IMG/VR virus record: IMGVR_UViG_3300046001_003660
Span: 1 to 22,807 of that record
DNA from: a virus
DNA: 22,807 nucleotides
Reading direction: 5' to 3' (one strand)
The position numbers and the translations under genes were made by a program. The first letter of the stretch is position 1, and each line of letters begins with the position of its first letter. Shown piece after piece: positions 12,693-22,455 of the stretch. The notes under the pieces were generated by a model, which was given only the letters and a program-made list of their open reading frames with translations, was not told the origin of the DNA and searched no databases.

Positions 12693-12737
12693 TTAAAATA
12701 TTCAGGATAAACGAAAAAAAGATTATATTTATAATAT

Positions 12738-14965: not shown

Positions 14966-15075
14966 GAAAAGATTTACAATTCTTCCGAACCAAAATAGAA
15001 TTACAAGTAGCGGAAATGGTATATAGATATTACGACCATAAACATAACATAATATTTAAGTTCATAAACTTATGA
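14962..15075 (+). CDS. 37-residue micro-protein with ATGA junctions at both ends
   Basis: A short frame MRKDLQFFRTKIELQVAEMV...FKFINL that starts in the ATGA shared with the upstream stop and ends in the ATGA shared with the downstream start. These two overlaps, and the lack of any other use for these 110 bases, argue that it is translated by coupling. The peptide is basic, likely helical (residues 7-24), with no membrane segment. Function unknown. Confidence 0.55.
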   Translation: MRKDLQFFRTKIELQVAEMVYRYYDHKHNIIFKFINL

Positions 15076-15419
15076 CGACATTTTTTTCATTTATAAAAAA
15101 ATATAATAAAAAACATTTCAAGAGTTATAGTGATTATCCTGATGCTGTAAAAAATAACGCGAAAAGAGGAATTGAACTTAATAAAGAAAATGGAAACAAA
15201 TGTGCTACACAGGTTGGGAAAGTAAGAGCGCAACAATTAGCGCAAGGAGAACCAATCAGTGAAGAAACAATTAAGAGGATGTATAGTTATTTGAGTAGAG
15301 CAGAAACCTATTACGATAGTTCAGACGACAATACAGATTGTGGATATATATCTTTTTTGTTATGGGGAGGAAAATCCGCGTTAAGTTGGTCGGAAAGTAA
15401 GGTTAATTCATTTAAGTAA
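15072..15419 (+). CDS. Small conserved phage head-associated domain protein
   Basis: 115 residues. The signature SDYPDAVKNNAKRGIELNKENGNKCAT (broken at about 19-45), VGKVRAQQLAQGEPISEETIKRMYSYLSR (46-74) and the closing WGGKSALSWSESKV matches a small domain I know from phage proteins, often fused to prohead proteases or other virion proteins; there it ends in WGGDxGxxWAxxK. Here it stands alone as the last gene of the rightward late block, coupled by ATGA to the micro-gene. A DNA-packaging or head-assembly role is the usual context, but the biochemical function is not known to me. Confidence 0.55.
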   Translation: MTTFFSFIKKYNKKHFKSYSDYPDAVKNNAKRGIELNKENGNKCATQVGKVRAQQLAQGEPISEETIKRMYSYLSRAETYYDSSDDNTDCGYISFLLWGGKSALSWSESKVNSFK

Positions 15420-15485
15420 AATAATCCATCATTAAATTACATTACATATGTCAGTGATGGGATAAACCCACATTAATCATTAATT

Positions 15486-15513
15486 AGAGTTCCATTTTGG
15501 GACTTTCTTTATT
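15486..15513 (+). terminator. Weak terminator-like hairpin after late block
   Basis: AGAGTTCC (15486-15493) can pair with GGGACTTT (15499-15506) around a 5-nt ATTTT loop with wobble pairs, followed by the U-rich CTTTATTT. A competing pairing (ACTTTC at 15502 with GAAAGT about 15 nt on) is possible. It is the only plausible stop for rightward late transcription before the leftward block. A further stem (CCATCA 15426-15431 with TGATGG 15455-15460) lies upstream without a T tract. Confidence 0.35.
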
Positions 15514-15535
15514 TGGTGAGGAAAGTGTGAGGCAC

Positions 15536-15561
15536 AAAAAAAGACGACCTTAAATCGTCTT
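15536..15561 (-). terminator. Rho-independent terminator of the leftward operon
   Basis: Read on the minus strand, AAGACGA (15561-15555) pairs with TCGTCTT (15547-15541), a 7-bp stem with a 7-nt loop, followed by a run of T (complement of 15542-15536). It ends the minus-strand genes 97 nt after their last stop codon. Confidence 0.75.
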
Positions 15562-15632
15562 AAAACTACTAACCCCGACCTTAACATACTAAAACAAAAT
15601 TAAAAAAATAAAATGGAACCTGTGGTCGGGGT
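15560..15632 (-). repeat. Inverted-repeat RNA element, copy A (3' UTR of leftward operon)
   Basis: On the minus strand ACCCCGACC (15632-15624) pairs perfectly with GGTCGGGGT (15580-15572) over a loop of 43 nt. The 3' side belongs to a 22-base segment (15560-15581) that is identical to 16113-16134 in copy B. It leads straight into the operon terminator. It lies in the mRNA 3' to the gene at 15658-15846. Confidence 0.7.
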
Positions 15633-15657
15633 GTTCGTTATTACCCTTGGGGGGAAA

Positions 15658-15846
15658 TTATTTTAACTTACTAATAATAGAATTGATATATTCTATCTTA
15701 CCTATATAATCAGTAGGGGTATTTTTAATTTCTTTTCGTAAATTGATTTTAATACAAGCAAGGTCATTTTTAGTTAGTGTTACATCAACTATTTCTAACA
15801 TTTCTTTTTCTAAATCTTTTTTCAATTTTTTTATATCTTTTTCCAT
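15658..15846 (-). CDS. Short helical hypothetical protein
   Basis: 62 residues, MEKDIKKLKKDLEKEMLEIVD followed by a second helix ending YINSIISKLK. Highly charged (Lys/Glu), likely a coiled coil; no cysteines apart from one, no membrane segment. Its ATG directly follows the stop of the upstream minus-strand gene (0 nt gap), so the two are co-translated. It is the last gene of the leftward block, lying just before inverted-repeat copy A and the terminator. Function unknown. Confidence 0.55.
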   Translation of the reverse strand: MEKDIKKLKKDLEKEMLEIVDVTLTKNDLACIKINLRKEIKNTPTDYIGKIEYINSIISKLK

Positions 15847-16086
15847 TTAATTTGTTTTTAATTTTTTACCAATCTCAATACATCTATCATACGAAACATT
15901 CTTGAAAGCCGTATCGGTTCCAACCTTCTGTCCCTGTATGGCGGAGGTTCCGTAAGTATATTTCTTAACCATAAAGGTCGGTAGTGATTTTTTGTTCTCG
16001 TTCAATACTTTTGTTAAAGCATCAAGGTAGTCAAAAAACTCGTTCTCGGGTAGTTGTTTCAGTTCTTCATCAGTTAATCTTTTCAT
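15847..16086 (-). CDS. Small hypothetical protein
   Basis: 79 residues beginning MKRLTDEELKQLPENEFFDYLDALTKVL, an acidic helical front, then FMVKKYTYGTSAIQGQKVGTD and a helical end (YDRCIEIGKKLK). No family recognised. It has its own candidate promoter 147 nt upstream (16233-16269) and a leader holding inverted-repeat copy B, so it may be controlled separately from the larger operon. It abuts the downstream 62-residue gene. Confidence 0.6.
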   Translation of the reverse strand: MKRLTDEELKQLPENEFFDYLDALTKVLNENKKSLPTFMVKKYTYGTSAIQGQKVGTDTAFKNVSYDRCIEIGKKLKTN

Positions 16087-16112
16087 AATCGTTTTGTTTT
16101 ATTCTTTATCAA

Positions 16113-16206
16113 TTAAAACTACTAACCCCGACCTAATCGTATTAATTCAAAAATGGGTAAATCATCATTGTTAATACTCGTCTATCTTTTGGATGCGAGG
16201 TCGGGG
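16113..16206 (-). repeat. Inverted-repeat RNA element, copy B (5' leader of small-gene pair)
   Basis: On the minus strand CCCCGACCT (16134-16126, complement form) and AGGTCGGGG pair across 16126-16134 and 16198-16206, a perfect 9-bp stem over a 63-nt loop. The segment 16113-16134 is identical over 22 bases to 15560-15581 in copy A. The loop sequences of the two copies are unrelated. It lies in the leader between the candidate promoter and the ATG at 16086. Confidence 0.7.
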
Positions 16207-16232
16207 CTTTCGTTTTTACCTTTATTGAACCA

Positions 16233-16269
16233 CAAAGAAACGCCCATTACTCCGAAGAGCAATGAGTTT
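16233..16269 (-). promoter_or_regulatory. Leftward promoter of the AAACTCATTGC class
   Basis: On the minus strand AAACTCATTGC occupies 16269-16259; 19 nt after its TTG comes TTTCTTTG (16240-16233), five of six fixed positions of the Bacteroidota -7 box TAnnTTTG. Transcription would start near 16227 and run through inverted-repeat copy B into the genes at 16086 and 15846. It lies just after the stop of the gene at 16283, making it an internal promoter of the leftward block. Confidence 0.55.
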
Positions 16270-16282
16270 TTCAATGTTTTTT

Positions 16283-16573
16283 TTATAAAGTTATAACTGA
16301 CTGATTTTCAGTGGGTTCTACCACCTTGGACTTACCACCTGTCTTGGTGTGAAGGGTTTTAAACACCCCTGTTTGTCCTGTTTCCAAATACTCAAACATC
16401 TCCTTTTGTAGGTTAAACAATTCCACTACGGAGACCTGAATGTTAAATAACTTGATTAGTTCCAATGTCTGTGTTAAAGCGGTGGTTCTTGTTATGATTG
16501 GTTGAGTGGTTTCTTTGAAACCCTGTGTTCTGTCAAACCCGTAAGGTAGGTCATTCCATTTTTTTACTTCCAT
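16283..16573 (-). CDS. Hypothetical protein
   Basis: 96 residues, MEVKKWNDLPYGFDRTQGF, then a central helical region (ALTQTLELIKLFNIQ, VSVVELFNLQKEMFEYLETG) and a basic, flexible tail (GVFKTLHTKTGGKSKVVEPT). No membrane segment or metal motif. It starts 12 nt after the stop of the zinc-finger gene and belongs to the leftward operon. The pattern of a hydrophobic helix with a basic tail suggests a small protein- or nucleic-acid-binding factor, but I do not recognise it. Confidence 0.6.
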   Translation of the reverse strand: MEVKKWNDLPYGFDRTQGFKETTQPIITRTTALTQTLELIKLFNIQVSVVELFNLQKEMFEYLETGQTGVFKTLHTKTGGKSKVVEPTENQSVITL

Positions 16574-16585
16574 TTTGTTTTGATT

Positions 16586-17425
16586 TTATTTTAATTTTAA
16601 TTTATATGTTTCAGGTAATACTCTTAATTTCTTTAATTGAACGGGATGCGTATAAGTGAATCTAACCCTACTCCCAAACTCCACTATATTTTCACAAGGA
16701 CAGAAAGCGTAAAACTTTTCTTCCTTACCAAATAATTTCAATTCCCAATTACAATAATCTTTACCATTCCATTTCACTCCCTCCGCGTTAATCACTTCAC
16801 TTACAACGGCAACATACTCGTTGTTATGAATTAATCGTTCAGGTAGTTCGTAAAGTTTTTCTTTAACGGCCTCAACATCACTCAAAGGATTTTGTAGGTC
16901 TTTAATTTGGTTTTTCAAATCACCGATTTGTATTTCATAACTCAAACGGAACTTATCAAAATCACTTTTTAGATTTTGTAATTCGTTGTGCATCCGAGAG
17001 TGGGCTGTCTTCAATACATCAATCTTGTTCTTGAATTGTTCTTCTTCACTCATAATGTTTGGGTTTTTGTTTTGTAAATAATAATTCTTGCATCCGTCCC
17101 ACCACTTTTCAATATCTTGTTTCGGGACATCACCTACTACGAGGTCTTTAATTTTTTGTTTTTCAGTTTCCAATAACTCCTTGTGTTGTCGGTCTTTCCA
17201 TTCAGTCATTTTTTTATTTAAATCTTCGGTCATTAACTCCTGTGGTGTTCTCACCACTTGGTTTGTGTTTTTTTGTTTTTCCATTTTTTTATTTTTATTT
17301 CGTTGTGAATAATACTTACTACTGCACTCCTTACACCAAGAACCCAATCCGTCAATTTGGGATTTGTTATTGTGAAAATCTTCTTTTATTTTGTATGTCT
17401 TACAAATACTACATAACTTTATCAT
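16586..17425 (-). CDS. Zinc-finger / coiled-coil protein with C-terminal beta (OB-like) domain
   Basis: 279 residues in three parts. Residues 1-40 form a zinc finger with C5, C8, C31 and C34 (LCSICKTYK ... GLGSWCKECSSKYY), the type seen at the front of phage recombination endonuclease VII-like and HNH proteins, but no HNH residues follow. Residues about 45-185 are charged helix/coiled coil. Residues about 200-275 are strand-rich (EYVAVVSEVI, CNWELKLFGKEEKFYAF, GSRVRFTYTH), consistent with an OB-like fold, so binding of nucleic acid is plausible. Its ATG overlaps the upstream stop TGA (ATGA). A replication or recombination accessory factor is a guess from the domains; no enzyme motif is visible. 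Confidence 0.6.
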   Translation of the reverse strand: MIKLCSICKTYKIKEDFHNNKSQIDGLGSWCKECSSKYYSQRNKNKKMEKQKNTNQVVRTPQELMTEDLNKKMTEWKDRQHKELLETEKQKIKDLVVGDVPKQDIEKWWDGCKNYYLQNKNPNIMSEEEQFKNKIDVLKTAHSRMHNELQNLKSDFDKFRLSYEIQIGDLKNQIKDLQNPLSDVEAVKEKLYELPERLIHNNEYVAVVSEVINAEGVKWNGKDYCNWELKLFGKEEKFYAFCPCENIVEFGSRVRFTYTHPVQLKKLRVLPETYKLKLK

Positions 17426-17721
17426 ACTAATTTGTTTTTTAATTCTTCGTTTATTTCTTCAATCTCTTCTTGAATATTGACCTCATCAAGTATGTCGTTC
17501 ATTTCAAAACCATTATCATAACAATAATCAATAGATTTATATATTCTGTTTATGTTTCTTGTGTATATTTCATCTACAATATAATCTATACAACAATCTT
17601 CTAAAACGCTTTCAACTCGGTTGTATATTTCTTGTCTTACTAATTCAGTCGTCCATATTGAAGACGCAACATAATCAGGATGTTGTCTTAATTCATTTAT
17701 TATTTCATTTATATCTTTCAT
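17422..17721 (-). CDS. Acidic helical hypothetical protein
   Basis: 99 residues, strongly acidic at the end (DILDEVNIQEEIEEINEELKN). Mostly helical, with Cys-Cys (EDCCID) and DYCYD in the middle. It starts 1 nt after the SprT-like stop on the minus strand and overlaps the zinc-finger gene by 4 nt, so the three are one translation unit. Small acidic phage proteins of this kind sometimes mimic DNA or bind host factors, but nothing specific is recognised here. Confidence 0.6.
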   Translation of the reverse strand: MKDINEIINELRQHPDYVASSIWTTELVRQEIYNRVESVLEDCCIDYIVDEIYTRNINRIYKSIDYCYDNGFEMNDILDEVNIQEEIEEINEELKNKLV

Positions 17722-17722
17722 C

Positions 17723-18514
17723 TTAATTTGATTTATATTTTCTAACTACCATTTTATATTTTTCATCATACACATTACTGCATCTTCCGCAAGAGGTTGG
17801 TGTGTTTTTTTGTGTATAACTTTCTTTACCACATTCAGGACAAGTCATAATGTATTTTGGAATCCACTTTTTAATACCAAGTTTTTCATACATCTCCAAA
17901 TCCTTTTGTTGAGACCCCCAAGAAAAATCACTACGGGCAGAAGGTCTTGCACCAATCTCCCTACACTTACTCTTCCATACGTTATTGTGTCGTTCTCTTG
18001 CACCAACGAGGGCGTGAGCGACCTCGTGAAGAATTACGTCAGTAATTTCTTCAGGAGGGAGAACCTTAATCCATCTCTTGTTAAGGGAAATTTGTTTATA
18101 CTTGAAATTACATACACCCAAGTATGTCTTAGGTTCGTCTTTCCAAGTGAAACCCCATCCCGCATCAATTAAGTTGTATTGTGTTAATACATCTTCTGCT
18201 TGGGATTTAACATTATCCAACTCATCATCACTATTAATTAATTTAACAGGTGTAGGTGCAGTTAATTTGGGTTTCTTAATCTCATCTATCTTCGTTAGAA
18301 AGGTGTAGATGAACTTGTCTTCGGGTATTGAAGAAAGAATTAATTTATCAATACTAATTGTTTTAGTATCTCGGTTGATTTTTGTTGGTGGTTCATTATT
18401 ACCTTCCAACTTGGTTGTTAATTTCCAATCATTCAATCCCGCCTTATCCAACTCATTACGAGCGGCTTTTTTATTGACGCGGATTTGTAATAACTGATTG
18501 TGTGTAAAAGTCAT
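17723..18514 (-). CDS. SprT-like zinc metallopeptidase
   Basis: 263 residues from the ATG at 18514, chosen because an AGGAG lies just before it and because a longer in-frame start at 18625 would fall inside the promoter spacer. The C-terminal half has the SprT signature: DVILHEVAHALVGARERHNNVWKSKC with H163, E164, H167 and H176, followed by a zinc ribbon (CPEC at 225-228 and CGRC at 242-245). The first 90 residues are a different, non-conserved region. SprT/Spartan family proteins cleave proteins crosslinked to DNA; phage versions are common but little studied. It is the first gene of the leftward operon, with a consensus promoter 87 nt upstream. Confidence 0.85.
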   Translation of the reverse strand: MTFTHNQLLQIRVNKKAARNELDKAGLNDWKLTTKLEGNNEPPTKINRDTKTISIDKLILSSIPEDKFIYTFLTKIDEIKKPKLTAPTPVKLINSDDELDNVKSQAEDVLTQYNLIDAGWGFTWKDEPKTYLGVCNFKYKQISLNKRWIKVLPPEEITDVILHEVAHALVGARERHNNVWKSKCREIGARPSARSDFSWGSQQKDLEMYEKLGIKKWIPKYIMTCPECGKESYTQKNTPTSCGRCSNVYDEKYKMVVRKYKSN

Positions 18515-18535
18515 ACTCCTATTTTTTTTACTTCG

Positions 18536-18553
18536 TTTATTTTGGGTTTCCCC
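18536..18553 (-). promoter_or_regulatory. Shared 18-nt leader motif, SprT-like gene copy
   Basis: On the minus strand this is GGGGAAACCCAAAATAAA, 21 nt before the SprT-like ATG. The identical 18 bases occur at 19634-19651 before the DUF6291-like gene, which is read the other way. GGG-GAAA-CCC can form a tiny GNRA-capped hairpin. Role unknown; translation control is a possibility. Confidence 0.6.
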
Positions 18554-18600
18554 ACTTATATAAATATTTTGGAATATTACAAAGTGTCCGAAACCTGAAA

Positions 18601-18637
18601 CAAATATAAAAAATATTTTCCACATCGCAATGAGTTT
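18601..18637 (-). promoter_or_regulatory. Leftward promoter of the SprT-like operon (AAACTCATTGC class)
   Basis: On the minus strand AAACTCATTGC (18637-18627) contains the -33 TTG. Exactly 19 nt later is TATATTTG (18608-18601), a perfect TAnnTTTG box. Transcription should begin near 18595, giving a leader of about 80 nt that contains the shared 18-nt motif. Confidence 0.75.
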
Positions 18638-18670
18638 ATGAAACTATTTTTTTTTTATTAAAATATAATC

Positions 18671-18681
18671 AAACTCATTGC
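18671..18681 (+). promoter_or_regulatory. Fourth AAACTCATTGC element, rightward, without clear -7 box
   Basis: An exact 11-base match in rightward orientation, preceded by the same kind of A/T tract as the other copies. At the expected distance the sequence is ATTACTGT, not TAnnTTTG, so activity is doubtful. It shares AATCCAAA downstream with the copy at 18862, pointing to duplication. Confidence 0.4.
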
Positions 18682-18689
18682 CAATCCAA

Positions 18690-18860
18690 ATCTTTCTCAA
18701 TTACTGTATAAACGTAATTTACGGACACCAAGTAGGTTTCTAACAAAAGGGTTAGGTCAGTTGGTAAAGATGTAGTTTTGGAGATCTGGTAAGGTCTCAC
18801 CCGTATTACTGACCCCATCAGTATTTCACTCCATCAAAAAATAAAAAAAAAATATTTCAA
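18690..18860 (+). other. Non-coding control region between promoter copies, with small hairpins
   Basis: The 470 bases from 18515 to 18984 carry no convincing gene. Besides the promoters this part contains a small palindrome CGTAA-T-TTACG (18713-18723), a 6-bp hairpin GAGATC/GGTCTC (18781-18798, TGGTAA loop) and CTGA/TCAG around CCCCA (18809-18821). It is less AT-rich than the flanks, with a long A tract at its end (18835-18852). An RNA or protein-binding region is possible; I see no definite gene. Confidence 0.35.
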
Positions 18861-18861
18861 T

Positions 18862-18898
18862 AAACTCATTGCTAATCCAAAAAAAACCCGCATATTTG
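18862..18898 (+). promoter_or_regulatory. Rightward promoter of the AAACTCATTGC class
   Basis: AAACTCATTGC at 18862-18872, then 19 nt after its TTG the box CATATTTG (18891-18898), five of six fixed positions of TAnnTTTG. Transcription would begin near 18904 and run into the gene at 18985. Confidence 0.6.
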
Positions 18899-18900
18899 TG

Positions 18901-18922
18901 TTGTGGTTGGAAACGACCACAA
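18901..18922 (+). other. GAAA-capped hairpin at the 5' end of the rightward transcript
   Basis: A 9-bp stem (18901-18909 with 18914-18922, one G-T wobble) closed by a GAAA tetraloop. Given the promoter just upstream, this would lie at the extreme 5' end of the message, a position where stem-loops often protect phage RNA from decay. Confidence 0.5.
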
Positions 18923-18984
18923 TCAGTTCTTTCACATAACATAACGGGTGGTTCCGTCAAAGACCGAAAGGACATTTCATCATT

Positions 18985-19509
18985 ATGAAAAAGATTAACA
19001 AGAGTGGTAATGTTATTATCACCAATCCAAACCAATGGAATCACATTTCCAAAAACCCTGTTCTTACAAATGAGACTGGGTTCCAAATCCAACAACAAGG
19101 GTATGGTAAAACGGAGGAAGGTCAATCACAAGAAACCTTTATGAGAAAGGTGTCGGACATTCTCTCACAAATAAGAGAAGAAGAACTTGACCGATGGGCA
19201 CTCTACAACGAACCATTATTCTACGATAGTGGGTATGGTGAGGATAGGGAAGAAAATGGTTATTTACGTTGGGTTGAGTTGGTTGATGATGAAGACAACA
19301 TCATCGTTACAGCGGTTAAGGACAACGGAGAAAATGGAATTACATACGACATAACACTCGTAGGAACACCATACCTCTTTTCTTACTCGGTGAAGTTCAA
19401 TTTCTTTTGGAGAGTTGGAAAGTTCGTCCGAAACAAAATCGTTTCCATAACTCCTGAGACAGCGAACAAGGATTTAGCTTGGGACGACGATAAGAAGATG
19501 TGGTGTTAA
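18985..19509 (+). CDS. Hypothetical early protein
   Basis: 174 residues, MKKINKSGNVIITNPNQWNH. The middle is strongly acidic (REEELDRWALYNEPLF, SGYGEDREENGYLRWVELVDDED); the C-terminus has aromatic strands (PYLFSYSVKFNFFWRVGKFVRNK) and ends DDDKKMWC. It has its own promoter, a 5' hairpin and an excellent terminator right after the stop, so it is a single-gene unit. Fewer rare A/T-only codons appear here than in the late genes. Family not recognised; a host-takeover or regulatory role would fit a solitary, strongly bounded early gene but is a guess. Confidence 0.6.
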   Translation: MKKINKSGNVIITNPNQWNHISKNPVLTNETGFQIQQQGYGKTEEGQSQETFMRKVSDILSQIREEELDRWALYNEPLFYDSGYGEDREENGYLRWVELVDDEDNIIVTAVKDNGENGITYDITLVGTPYLFSYSVKFNFFWRVGKFVRNKIVSITPETANKDLAWDDDKKMWC

Positions 19510-19516
19510 ACCACAC

Positions 19517-19543
19517 AAGTTCCCCTTCGGGGGAACTTTTTTT
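19517..19543 (+). terminator. Strong rho-independent terminator with TTCG loop
   Basis: Perfect 9-bp stem AAGTTCCCC/GGGGAACTT (19517-19525 and 19530-19538) capped by the very stable TTCG tetraloop and followed by five more T residues. It begins 7 nt after the stop codon of the gene at 18985. Confidence 0.95.
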
Positions 19544-19633
19544 ATGTCTTGGTGGATTGCCAAACAAATTTGTATTGAAAAAATATTTTCAAACTTTTTA
19601 ATACTTTCCACTATTACAGCACATTTATTGAAA

Positions 19634-19651
19634 GGGGAAACCCAAAATAAA
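19634..19651 (+). promoter_or_regulatory. Shared 18-nt leader motif, DUF6291-like gene copy
   Basis: GGGGAAACCCAAAATAAA, identical to the minus-strand motif at 18553-18536, ending 24 nt before the ATG at 19676. Upstream lie A/T-rich sequence and the palindrome ACAAATTTGT (about 19563-19574), but no consensus promoter. Confidence 0.6.
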
Positions 19652-19675
19652 AATCATAAAACCAAAAAAATCAAA

Positions 19676-19963
19676 ATGAAAAAAAACTCAATCATTTTAC
19701 ACTCCACAATGTTGGAGGTGTTGAAAGAACTAAACAAGGAAGACATAATCAATTATATTGAAAATGTTTTTAAATGTAATAACGATGAAGCACCAATCTT
19801 CAACAATACTACAATGAAATTATTATATACATCAATCCTACCTGTAATTGAAGCAGACAAGTTGAGGTATGATAAAAAAGTTATTAATGGTAAATTAAAT
19901 GGACTTAAAGGTGGAGCACCACTTGGAAACAATAACGCATCTAAACAACCCAAAACAACCTAA
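19676..19963 (+). CDS. DUF6291-like replication-region protein
   Basis: 95 residues from the ATG at 19676; a longer frame from 19544 would run over the terminator and the shared leader and is not used. The layout, a helical body (MLEVLKELNKEDIINYIENVF) followed by LLYTSILPVIEADKLRYDKK and NGKLNGLKGGAPLGNNNASK, matches DUF6291-type proteins in Bacteroidota phages and prophages. These lie in replication regions and usually carry a long Asn/Gln/Thr/Pro-rich tail. Here the frame stops at KQPKTT, and the DNA beyond still looks like such a tail (repeated AACAACC/CAACCTAAA). It may be naturally short or truncated by a small frameshift. Right after it comes a heptamer array, which fits an origin-linked role. 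Confidence 0.55.
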   Translation: MKKNSIILHSTMLEVLKELNKEDIINYIENVFKCNNDEAPIFNNTTMKLLYTSILPVIEADKLRYDKKVINGKLNGLKGGAPLGNNNASKQPKTT

Positions 19964-19990
19964 ATCAAACCAATCAACCTAAACAACCTG

Positions 19991-20046
19991 TTATATGTTA
20001 TATGTTATATGTTATATGAAATATGTTATATGAAATATGTTATATG
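19991..20046 (+). repeat. Eight tandem TTATATG-type heptamers (iteron-like array)
   Basis: Eight consecutive 7-bp units without gaps: TTATATG four times, AAATATG, TTATATG, AAATATG, TTATATG. They lie between a DUF6291-like gene and a nuclease operon, an AT-rich location typical of phage replication origins. Because seven is not a multiple of three, copy changes would also shift any reading frame running through. Confidence 0.75.
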
Positions 20047-20049
20047 GAA

Positions 20050-20063
20050 ATATACTAGTATAT
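20050..20063. repeat. Perfect 14-bp palindrome beside heptamer array
   Basis: ATATACTAGTATAT is its own reverse complement and lies 3 nt after the last heptamer and 27 nt before the next start codon. It could be a binding site for a dimeric protein or part of the putative origin. Confidence 0.65.
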
Positions 20064-20090
20064 ACTGGGTAGAATTAAAATAAAAAAATT

Positions 20091-20426
20091 ATGTGTTTAA
20101 TAAAAAATAATATTGAAAGTAATAATGATATTTCTCTTGGAGGCAATATCCTTAATGAAATAAAACCTTCAACAGAAGAAAAGAAACTCCCAACTAAAAT
20201 CACCGGTAGTCAAGCACCAAGATGGAGAGAAGGTGAAGTGAATATAAAACAATTTCATACCCTCTCAACCGAAGGAAAGGAAGAACATATCAAGTATATT
20301 CAATCATTACCCGCAGCAATACTGGGTGATTGTGATGTATATTTAATTCGTTGGTATGGTAAGAAAGAAAAAATAAACTTCTTCTCAATAGAGGAGCACT
20401 CAAAATACTTAACCAAAAATATATGA
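20091..20426 (+). CDS. Hypothetical protein of the replication region
   Basis: 111 residues, MCLIKNNIESNNDISLGG; a polar, Asn/Glu/Lys-rich front half and a more ordered back half (KQFHTLSTEGKEEHIKYIQSL, AAILGDCDVYLIRWYGKKEK). No motif recognised. It follows the iteron-like array and palindrome by 27 nt and shares ATGA with the nuclease-like gene, so the two are translated together. A replication accessory role is suggested by place only. Confidence 0.6.
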   Translation: MCLIKNNIESNNDISLGGNILNEIKPSTEEKKLPTKITGSQAPRWREGEVNIKQFHTLSTEGKEEHIKYIQSLPAAILGDCDVYLIRWYGKKEKINFFSIEEHSKYLTKNI

Positions 20427-20941
20427 CACCAGCACTCCAAAAATACCTCCTATCCTTGGAAGAGGAAACACTCTACGAATTATTAAAGGAGACGATTTAC
20501 CCTGACCTGGTGAGGAATAGTGATGAAGCAACGGATAGTTTAGATTATTACCTCCCACCCAATAGTGGAAAGGAGTTTAAGTGTAGGAAAGAACCTGAGT
20601 TTGGAAGCGGTCAGTATTACACTTATATGATTGAAAAACATAAATACGATGCCATCATTAACAAGTATGATGAAATATCTTACATCTGTTCGGGTGGTAA
20701 TGGAATATTTGAATGGGACTTGAAGAATTATCCCGAAGAAATAAATTGGATATGGGAACCTGATTATACTTGGAGCACAAGATATGCAAACCAAGATAAG
20801 AAAAATAAAGAAGTGGCTTACCTCCCAATACATTACGCAAAATATTTACATCCATTAGTATTTGAAATGTTATTCCAAAACTTTTATGACTACGACCCAA
20901 AAAAGTTTCTATATCCATTTGACTATAATAGATTAATGTAG
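20423..20941 (+). CDS. PD-(D/E)XK-type nuclease, possibly a Holliday-junction resolvase
   Basis: 172 residues. A restriction-endonuclease-like core is visible: D41 in LDYYLPP, then E51-F-K53 in GKEFKCRKE (the D...ExK pattern), followed by a Tyr/Glu/Lys helix TYMIEKHKYDAIINKY and the strand ISYICSGGNGIFEWDL. Phage resolvases and related small nucleases of Bacteroidota that I know share this run (LP..., ElKcR, EkdKY, YI.s...gi..f) and a later Lys-rich KNKEVAYLPIHYA segment, also present here. Such enzymes resolve branched DNA before packaging. It overlaps the preceding gene by 4 nt (ATGA) and ends with TAG just before a terminator cassette. The fold call is fairly good, the resolvase role less certain. 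Confidence 0.5.
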   Translation: MTPALQKYLLSLEEETLYELLKETIYPDLVRNSDEATDSLDYYLPPNSGKEFKCRKEPEFGSGQYYTYMIEKHKYDAIINKYDEISYICSGGNGIFEWDLKNYPEEINWIWEPDYTWSTRYANQDKKNKEVAYLPIHYAKYLHPLVFEMLFQNFYDYDPKKFLYPFDYNRLM

Positions 20942-21016: not shown

Positions 21017-21039
21017 GATTAATGAAAGTATTTATGGAT

Positions 21040-21504
21040 ATGAAGTTTTGTAGGATATGTGAGTTAGAAAAGTTTGAAGACCAATACTACACAAGTAATG
21101 ATGTTGTATGTAAGAGATGTTTATTAGACAGGGATAGAGTTAAGAGAAGAAATAAAACTATCTCAAATGGAGGCAGTGAAAGGGTTCCACAGAAACCAAA
21201 TACTTGGGCAGATGAAACACAAATGGAACAGACTCAACAATTTTTAGTATTACTTGGATATAAACAGAATAAAGAAAATAATGTATGGTATAAATTACCT
21301 TGGAAGACAAAAGATGCCGAGTTTCCGTTAATGGAAAAACAAAATAATCATCGAGGCAAACCAACACAATACTCAAAAGAACAAATAATGGAGTGGGTTG
21401 AGTTAAGAAAGAAAGGATTAACGTATGTAAAGATTTGTGAGATGTATGAAGTTCCAAATAAACAAACCATATATCATTATGTTAGAAAATATTTGGATAA
21501 ATGA
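21040..21504 (+). CDS. Zinc-finger / helix-turn-helix DNA-binding protein
   Basis: 154 residues from the ATG at 21040 (MKFCRICELEKF); in-frame ATGs at 21022 and 21034 would add six or two residues. I prefer 21040 because the sister cassette before 21621 aligns at ATGAAG. The front is a four-cysteine zinc finger (CRIC and CKRC, 20 apart). The C-terminus is a helix-turn-helix: YSKEQIMEWVELRKKGLTYVKICEMYEVPNKQTIYHYVRKYL (broken at about 105-150), of the type in small terminase subunits and transposase-like regulators. The middle (LVLLGYKQNKENNVWYKL) resembles part of a zinc-finger endonuclease-like domain. It may be a small-terminase-type or transcription factor; the position before the packaging genes makes the first attractive. 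Confidence 0.55.
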   Translation: MKFCRICELEKFEDQYYTSNDVVCKRCLLDRDRVKRRNKTISNGGSERVPQKPNTWADETQMEQTQQFLVLLGYKQNKENNVWYKLPWKTKDAEFPLMEKQNNHRGKPTQYSKEQIMEWVELRKKGLTYVKICEMYEVPNKQTIYHYVRKYLDK

Positions 21505-21527: not shown

Positions 21528-21544
21528 AATACCAATTTGGTATT
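21528..21544. promoter_or_regulatory. 17-bp inverted repeat, operator-like
   Basis: Two perfect 8-bp arms with one central base, placed about 14 nt downstream of a TATATTTA box, where a dimeric repressor could block transcription. As RNA it would be a hairpin with a loop too small to form fully, which makes a DNA site more likely. Confidence 0.5.
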
Positions 21545-21545
21545 G

Positions 21546-21601
21546 ACCCCGCAATGATAATCAAGTTTCTACTCCTATTCTCTGATTTAGCGGGGTTTTT
21601 T
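21546..21601 (+). terminator. Terminator with long loop
   Basis: Perfect 7-bp GC-rich stem (21546-21552 with 21590-21596) followed by a run of six T residues (21596-21601, the first paired). The 37-nt loop is unusual; it contains little self-pairing. Confidence 0.7.
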
Positions 21602-21620
21602 GATTAATGATGATATTTAT

Positions 21621-21977
21621 ATGAAGACAGATAAAGAAAAAAGAAAAATAATTCGTATAGTGATGAGACCAAAAATGATGAGGTTTTTAAATCAATTAAA
21701 ATTAATTGAGGAAGGAGTTTATTTTGAATTAACAGCAGAAGAAAAAATTGAAGTAGTCAAAAGAGTTAGAATGGTTATGGTAGAAGAAACAATAAAGGTA
21801 TTAGGAGGGATGGAAAGAAATAATTTAAAGTTAATAATGATGATATGTATTGAAACTTTACAATCCTTTTTAAGCGTATTTGAGGAGTTGGAAAATTACT
21901 CTTCTTGTCAGTTAATGACAGACGCAATAAAATTAATTGAAAATGATATTCAAGAGTTGGTTGAACCTGAATTATAA
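21621..21977 (+). CDS. Helical hypothetical protein
   Basis: 118 residues from the ATG at 21621; an earlier TTG in frame at 21600 lies in the terminator and is rejected. MKTDKEKRKIIRIVMRPKMM, then a helical body (LTAEEKIEVVKRVRMVMVEET, LKLIMMICIETLQSFLSVFEEL) and an acidic end (ENDIQELVEPEL). Rich in Met, Ile and Lys. A five-codon frame (21607-21624, ATG ATG ATA TTT ATA TGA) overlaps its start by ATGA. It overlaps the sigma-like gene by up to 41 nt. Function unknown. Confidence 0.6.
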   Translation: MKTDKEKRKIIRIVMRPKMMRFLNQLKLIEEGVYFELTAEEKIEVVKRVRMVMVEETIKVLGGMERNNLKLIMMICIETLQSFLSVFEELENYSSCQLMTDAIKLIENDIQELVEPEL

Positions 21978-22455
21978 TAAATTAAATACATTATCCAAAA
22001 AAATTGATAAAGAAAATGGGGAAGAGATATTACATTTTACAATTCAGAAGTTTTTGGAAAAGAATGATTTGGATTTTTTGGATAAGTTAGATGATGATAT
22101 AAAATTAAAATATATATCAAGGACTATGAAAATACAGGCAACCTCAACGGGCAGTCAATTTTATAGGGAGTGGAAAAGATTTACATTAATCACAAAAGAT
22201 GTTATTATTGAAGATAGGGAAGAAACTGATTATAGTGATGTAGATGAAATTAAAATAAAGTTTATAAAAGATAAATTAAAGGGAATGAATTGGTTTAGTT
22301 CATTATTGTTTCAGCGTTATGTTGAGATAGGGTGTTCCGCACAGAAACTATCAGAACAATTACTAATACCATTAACAACAATACAATATCATTTACGGAA
22401 GGTAAGAAATGAAATAAAGAACGATTGGAAAAATAGAAAAGATTATGGGATGTAA
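21937..22455 (+). CDS. Sigma-like / HTH transcription factor
   Basis: 172 residues from ATG 21937 (an ATG at 21943 is equally possible). The front (NYNKLNTLSKKIDKENGEEILHFTIQKFLE, broken at about 12-41) resembles sigma-70 region 2 of small sigma-like phage proteins, followed by KLKYISRTMKIQATSTGSQFYREWK. The end has a region-4-type helix-turn-helix: NWFSSLLFQRYVEIGCSAQKLSEQLLIPLTTIQYHLRKVRNEI (broken at about 118-160). Such genes stand beside packaging genes in Bacteroidota phages and may direct late transcription. It overlaps both neighbours (41 nt upstream, 11 nt downstream). Its target promoters are not known; the AAACTCATTGC class is one candidate set. Confidence 0.55.
   Translation: MKMIFKSWLNLNYNKLNTLSKKIDKENGEEILHFTIQKFLEKNDLDFLDKLDDDIKLKYISRTMKIQATSTGSQFYREWKRFTLITKDVIIEDREETDYSDVDEIKIKFIKDKLKGMNWFSSLLFQRYVEIGCSAQKLSEQLLIPLTTIQYHLRKVRNEIKNDWKNRKDYGM

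Follow-up and report, generated by a model that had tools for sequence, protein, structure and literature searches.

In the middle promoters of phage T4, the -10 element is intact and a MotA box is found at -30. In Bacteroidota, the promoters of the primary sigma factor consist of a -7 box, TAnnTTTG, and a -33 box, TTTG, which was seen in B. thetaiotaomicron and is weak or undetected in F. johnsoniae (PMC6847099; PMC7366714), and transcription starts 4 to 5 nt past the -7 box (PMC6847099). Within the part of the open-access literature that was covered, we found no account of how phages of Bacteroidota time their genes. Here, we analyze a stretch of DNA of 22,807 nt (the window) from a small, uncultured phage, in which copies of an 11-bp element, AAACTCATTGC, occur in a fixed register with boxes of the Bacteroidota type. 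The host of this phage is probably a member of the Bacteroidota, judging from its predicted promoters and from its portal protein, which has a distant match in Nonlabens phages; no relatives of the portal were found in bacterial genomes.

Results

The window contains four exact copies of the element, at 16259..16269 (minus strand), 18627..18637 (minus), 18671..18681 (plus), and 18862..18872 (plus), each at the position and on the strand given in the original prediction. All four are intergenic, and intergenic DNA makes up ~8% of the window. An order-2 Markov model of the window yields an expectation of ~0.014 exact copies, and when the intergenic DNA was resampled 500 times, comparable 11-mers (those containing all four letters and at least four G/C) never exceeded two copies. 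These counts speak against the element being a word that is common at random places, and among the 11-mers of the window that recur more often, most are runs of A/T or words of the CAGGTTCA type. Once up to two mismatches are permitted, the number of matches (12, versus 9.3 expected) falls to the chance level, indicating that the element recurs only as an exact word and is not surrounded by near matches. Copies 18627 and 18862 have A-tract flanks in common (33 nt at 91%), such that part of the identity of the 11-mer could stem from duplication, and copies 18671 and 18862 are alike over 31 nt (81%). Copy 18671 is divergent to copy 18627 and lies 33 nt from it.

When all four copies were scanned for TAnnTTTG, the best common offset was 18 nt past the 11-mer (19 nt past the TTG that it contains), at which the copies score 5, 6, 1, and 5 of 6. 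The octamers at this spacing are TTTCTTTG for copy 16259 (16233..16240, minus; 5/6), TATATTTG for copy 18627 (18601..18608, minus; 6/6), ATTACTGT for copy 18671 (18700-18707, plus; 1/6), and CATATTTG for copy 18862 (18891..18898, plus; 5/6). The -7 boxes claimed for three of the copies thus lie exactly 19 nt after the TTG, and at least three copies scoring at least 5/6 at one common offset are rare under permutation (p ~6e-4), as is the summed score of the four copies (p = 0.002). The full consensus is present only in TATATTTG, the other two -7 boxes deviating at one position, and the -33 box of the three promoter copies is ATTG, whereas the Bacteroidota consensus is TTTG.

Each of the three copies with a -7 box is oriented toward the start of a gene or operon, and A-tracts lie upstream of the predicted promoters. 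These three copies most likely belong to promoters of the Bacteroidota sigma-A type, for which the published start distance (PMC6847099) predicts transcription from about 16227-16229 (minus), about 18596 (minus), and about 18902-18903 (plus). The earlier view that the copies mark real promoters is supported for these three by the fixed 19 nt, the orientation, the A-tracts, and the geometry of sister phages described below, and it does not extend to copy 18671, which has no recognizable promoter and would be either a stand-alone regulator site or a degenerate or decayed promoter. Promoters of the E. coli sigma-70 type were also considered and discarded, with 35 found and 33.3 expected.

Copy 16259 falls in the -33 region of the predicted promoter of a small-gene pair (16086-15658; genes 15847 and 15658), whose 5' leader of 143 nt (16087..16229, minus) is strongly folded (z = -3.66). 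The same TTAAAACTACTAACCCCGACCT stretch occurs at both ends of this operon, within the structured leader (16114-16133) and near the 3' end (15561-15580). Copy 18627 holds the corresponding position in front of a four-gene leftward operon, which is headed by a SprT-like metallopeptidase gene (17723..18517, minus; Pfam SprT-like, 8.7e-12) and includes 17422-17721, 16586-17425, and 16283-16573. The leader of this operon (18536-18553, minus) and that of gene 19682 (19634-19651, plus) contain an identical 18-mer, GGGGAAACCCAAAATAAA, each on the sense strand. Copy 18862 supplies the -33 region for gene 18985 (18985..19509, plus), a solitary orphan whose 174-aa product had no significant match in a family search; a hairpin marks the predicted 5' end of its transcript (18900..18923, plus; leader z = -2.31), and an intrinsic terminator follows the gene (19517-19538). 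The stretch downstream of copy 18671 was rejected as a structured RNA (z = -0.85); an Rfam search of 15000-20500 and of seven sister loci returned no match, and no tRNA was found.

Distribution of the element and of its counterparts

The 11-mer has a narrow distribution among viral contigs. All four copies are present in L005, which is 99% identical to the window and lacks gene 17422, and the 16259 promoter is present in L074 (portal 88% identical), the sequence of which stops before the SprT region. Positions 16087-16282, comprising this promoter and its leader, differ from L074 by one 1-nt indel and by no substitutions, and in the neighboring gene, 16283-16573, 11 third positions have changed. 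Since the invariant block extends into coding sequence, recent exchange could account for the identity, and the conservation of the 11-mer is little tested because the element is common only to the near-identical L005 and, at one site, L074. L184, which continues the window rightward (99.9% identity over 810 nt), has no 11-mer in its 5.3 kb. Nor does the element define a widespread class of phage promoters: the 67 viral-contig stretches that contain the 11-mer and TAnnTTTG resemble coding or chance matches of mixed spacing, and in a second viral scan (107 stretches, ~80 of them listed), none of the other contigs listed has a pair of intergenic copies arranged in this way. The motif search in related phages that the original prediction had proposed finds the 11-mer in L005 and L074 and not in the sister phages, whose portals are 75-78% identical to that of the window. 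As read from these distributions, the promoter class is real yet private to one phage lineage, since no other viral contig among those read combines two intergenic copies with the geometry and the 11-mer is not a host element (see below).

In the same control region, the sister phages have promoters of the form TTG-N19/20-TAnnTTTG with a different -33 extension, TTTGGTGG, whereas that of the window copies is AAACTCATTGC. A TTG lies 19 to 21 nt upstream of 12 of the 26 intergenic TAnnTTTG boxes of sister phages (versus ~2% per position for genic boxes), mostly inside TTTGGTGG or TTTGGCGG. Sites of the TTTGGYGG type were found in L077, L085, L086, L087, and L088, and in L085 the promoter TTTGGCGG...TACATTTG (6195, minus) is situated upstream of the SprT-like homologue. 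That sister phages hold another extension at corresponding promoters suggests that the extension matters. A second conserved sequence, AAACATCTA, was rejected as the sister counterpart of the 11-mer because it sits downstream of the -7 box, within the 5' leader and beside the start codon. It recurs between -7 box and start codon in several genes (L085, L087, L088, and other sister loci) and resembles a 5' leader or translation-start element common to these genes.

The sister extension is abundant in bacterial genomes. In 14 Bacteroidota genomes, TTTGGTGG-N14-18-TAnnTTTG has 110 matches and reversed-pattern controls have 2, with a gap of mostly 16 nt; these genomes were picked for holding a match to a stricter form, such that the controls and the multiple matches per genome carry the weight. 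A scan of 84,980 species with the stricter form gave, among the matches listed, 80 of 80 titled Bacteroidota. With TTTGGTGG far above the controls, sister phages thus employ a host-type element. The same design with the 11-mer had 1 match versus 2 controls in 296 sampled Bacteroidota genomes, which is not above the control level, and 0 matches in the 14 genomes above. The extra bases of the 11-mer are thus a feature of the phage and not a host promoter motif.

The original prediction had attributed these bases to an activator or a modified sigma, and the latter option becomes concrete in that the phage encodes a sigma factor resembling those of the ECF group (21937..22455, plus), with a sigma2 plus sigma4 layout. 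Its AlphaFold model (pLDDT 74.6) comprises four helices, a low-confidence linker, and another four helices; the top matches in the PDB are ECF sigmas (best E, 1.2e-3), structure comparison of sigma-4 gives Z ~10 and an rmsd of 2.1-2.4 over 69-74 residues, and BFVD contains a sigma-70 region 2 protein at 2.6e-7. Sequence profiles are weak (best, 0.018 for phrog_1740 and 0.035 for Sigma70_r4_2), and the product, which lacks a clear family annotation, seems ECF-like by predicted fold. The family is 54-60% identical across the phage group, and its sigma-4 helix-turn-helix is nearly invariant among 11 members (S134, A135, I144, P145, L146, T148, Q150, Y151, H152, R154, K155, and V156). This constancy, in view of the TTTGGTGG element of those sisters that could be checked, disfavors the 21937 product as the reader, so that the sigma option stands as to the gene and weakens as to its role. 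Gene 21022 (21022..21504, plus) encodes a further candidate DNA-binding protein, with N-terminal CxxC-type cysteine pairs, a C-terminal HTH, and a weak TerS-type profile match, for which we infer a Zn-ribbon and a regulator role.

Other noncoding features were noted in the window and in related loci. A terminator-like hairpin at about 21535-21600 lies in front of gene 21621, the gene ahead of the sigma gene; the stem of this hairpin varies between phages, its loop (about TTCTACTCCCATCT) is conserved, homologous spots exist in L077, L085, L089, L185, L188, L191, and L194, and it is a possible attenuator or regulated terminator. DnaA-box-like TTWTCCACA sequences occur in the control regions of the window (18616-18624) and of L077, L085, L086, L087, L088, L089, and L185, and these boxes, with five in L089, suggest a replication origin. 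A conserved noncoding stretch with a ATTAGAGACGATTTAAGA core (L077, 12290-12410; L088, 6750-6850; L089, 9895-10005), which in L077 and L088 has TATTTTTG boxes nearby, is possibly a small RNA, for which an Rfam search gave no match. Another noncoding stretch adjoins TATATTTG in L085 (7015-7095) and L086 (6055-6130), and its stem arms covary between the two (GGGGTCGCAC/GTGCGGCCCC versus AGGGTCCACT/AGTGGACCCT). Tandem 7/14-nt repeats (ATGTTATATGAAAT-like) precede gene 20091 at 19989-20048, and a conserved block of the GATAAACGA / GTTGAGTA type, followed by a TATATTTA stretch right before the portal start codon, is present in the window (12693-12737) and in ~16 relatives, possibly as a late promoter.

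Discussion

We propose that the host primary RNA polymerase, of the sigma-ABfr type, would read three of the copies through the TTG, the 19-nt spacing, and the TAnnTTTG-like -7 box, and the assignment to host primary-sigma-type promoters, predicted as it is, is the best-supported part of the mechanism. In the lineage of the window, the -33 box would be embedded in AAACTCATTGC, in place of the host-like TTTGGTGG of sister phages, and a DNA-binding activator, encoded by the phage or, less likely, by the host, would bind over the -33 region, touching the 11-mer, and recruit polymerase. Gene 18985, the small-gene pair, and the operon of the SprT-like gene would then be switched on together, as in the timed regulon of the original prediction, probably early or in mid infection. 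Three observations lead to the activator: an 11-mer that is exact next to -7 boxes that are imperfect, the lack of this element in hosts, and the different allele of the sister phages. The 11-mer is best explained by a phage activator at the -33 region, which we consider about as likely as not, with promoter activity, activator, and timing all being predictions. On this evidence, early genes of the lineage have probably been retuned through a control site that is private to it. The fuller scenario, in which the lineage swapped TTTGGTGG for the 11-mer and a coevolved phage activator acts with the host primary sigma in a MotA-like takeover of sigma-ABfr, is more tentative and falls somewhat short of even chances.

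The main rival to an activator is that these are ordinary sigma-A-type promoters in which the TTG and the -7 box suffice, the identity of the 11-mer resulting from recent duplication or conversion. TTG-N19-TAnnTTTG alone suits the known Bacteroidota promoters (PMC6847099, PMC7366714), and the flanks of 18627 and 18671 each resemble those of 18862; however, the three spacers are unrelated although the 11-mer is exact, copy 16259 has little else in common with the others, and the matching promoters of sister phages retain another extension, all of which make this account rather unlikely.

Two further readings would assign the element to other proteins. ECF sigmas require a specific -35 element, and the 11-mer could be that of the ECF-like factor encoded at 21937-22455, whose gene and predicted fold fit the role, but the near-invariant sigma-4 helix-turn-helix in a group whose checkable members have TTTGGTGG, together with -7 boxes that look like the host sigma-A consensus, renders this improbable. 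We give a similarly low probability to the 11-mer being a repressor operator or a replication-origin iteron to which the -7 boxes are secondary. The divergent pair, the lack of a -7 box at 18671, and the DnaA-box-like sites in the same control region of the window and of most sister phages examined would agree with such a role, but it leaves the fixed 19-nt register in both orientations unaccounted for, and copy 16259 is 2.4 kb distant and the spacing is not regular, as that of iterons would be. A phage activator at the -33 region accordingly remains our preferred reading of the 11-mer.

With such an activator, the locus would resemble the MotA-dependent middle promoters of T4, in which a phage-specific box likewise replaces the host -35-type element beside a host-like -10-type box. 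The likeness is one of layout only, consisting of a lineage-specific 11-mer at -33 and a -7-like box in three of four copies; a counterpart of MotA/AsiA was not identified here, the candidate DNA-binding proteins being those of 21022 and 21937, and the arrangement of the -33 and -7 boxes follows the Bacteroidota pattern. The sigma-ABfr promoters of Bacteroidota (PMC6847099; PMC7366714) are similar to three of the four copies in having a TTG ~19 nt before a TAnnTTTG-type box and in being oriented toward genes; they differ in that the phage -33 box lies inside an exact 11-mer and that two of the three phage -7 boxes are off at one position. The closest parallels are the sister-phage and host promoters, TTTGGTGG-N16-TAnCTTTG, which have the same TTG-to-box geometry and, in the sisters, occupy the same control region, but whose extension is TTTGGTGG where that of the window is AAACTCATTGC. 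This phage and its sisters thereby present a natural allele difference at the -33 region, and the pair of alleles can be used to test both the role of the -33 element, which is weakly defined in Bacteroidota, and its replaceability by a phage activator.
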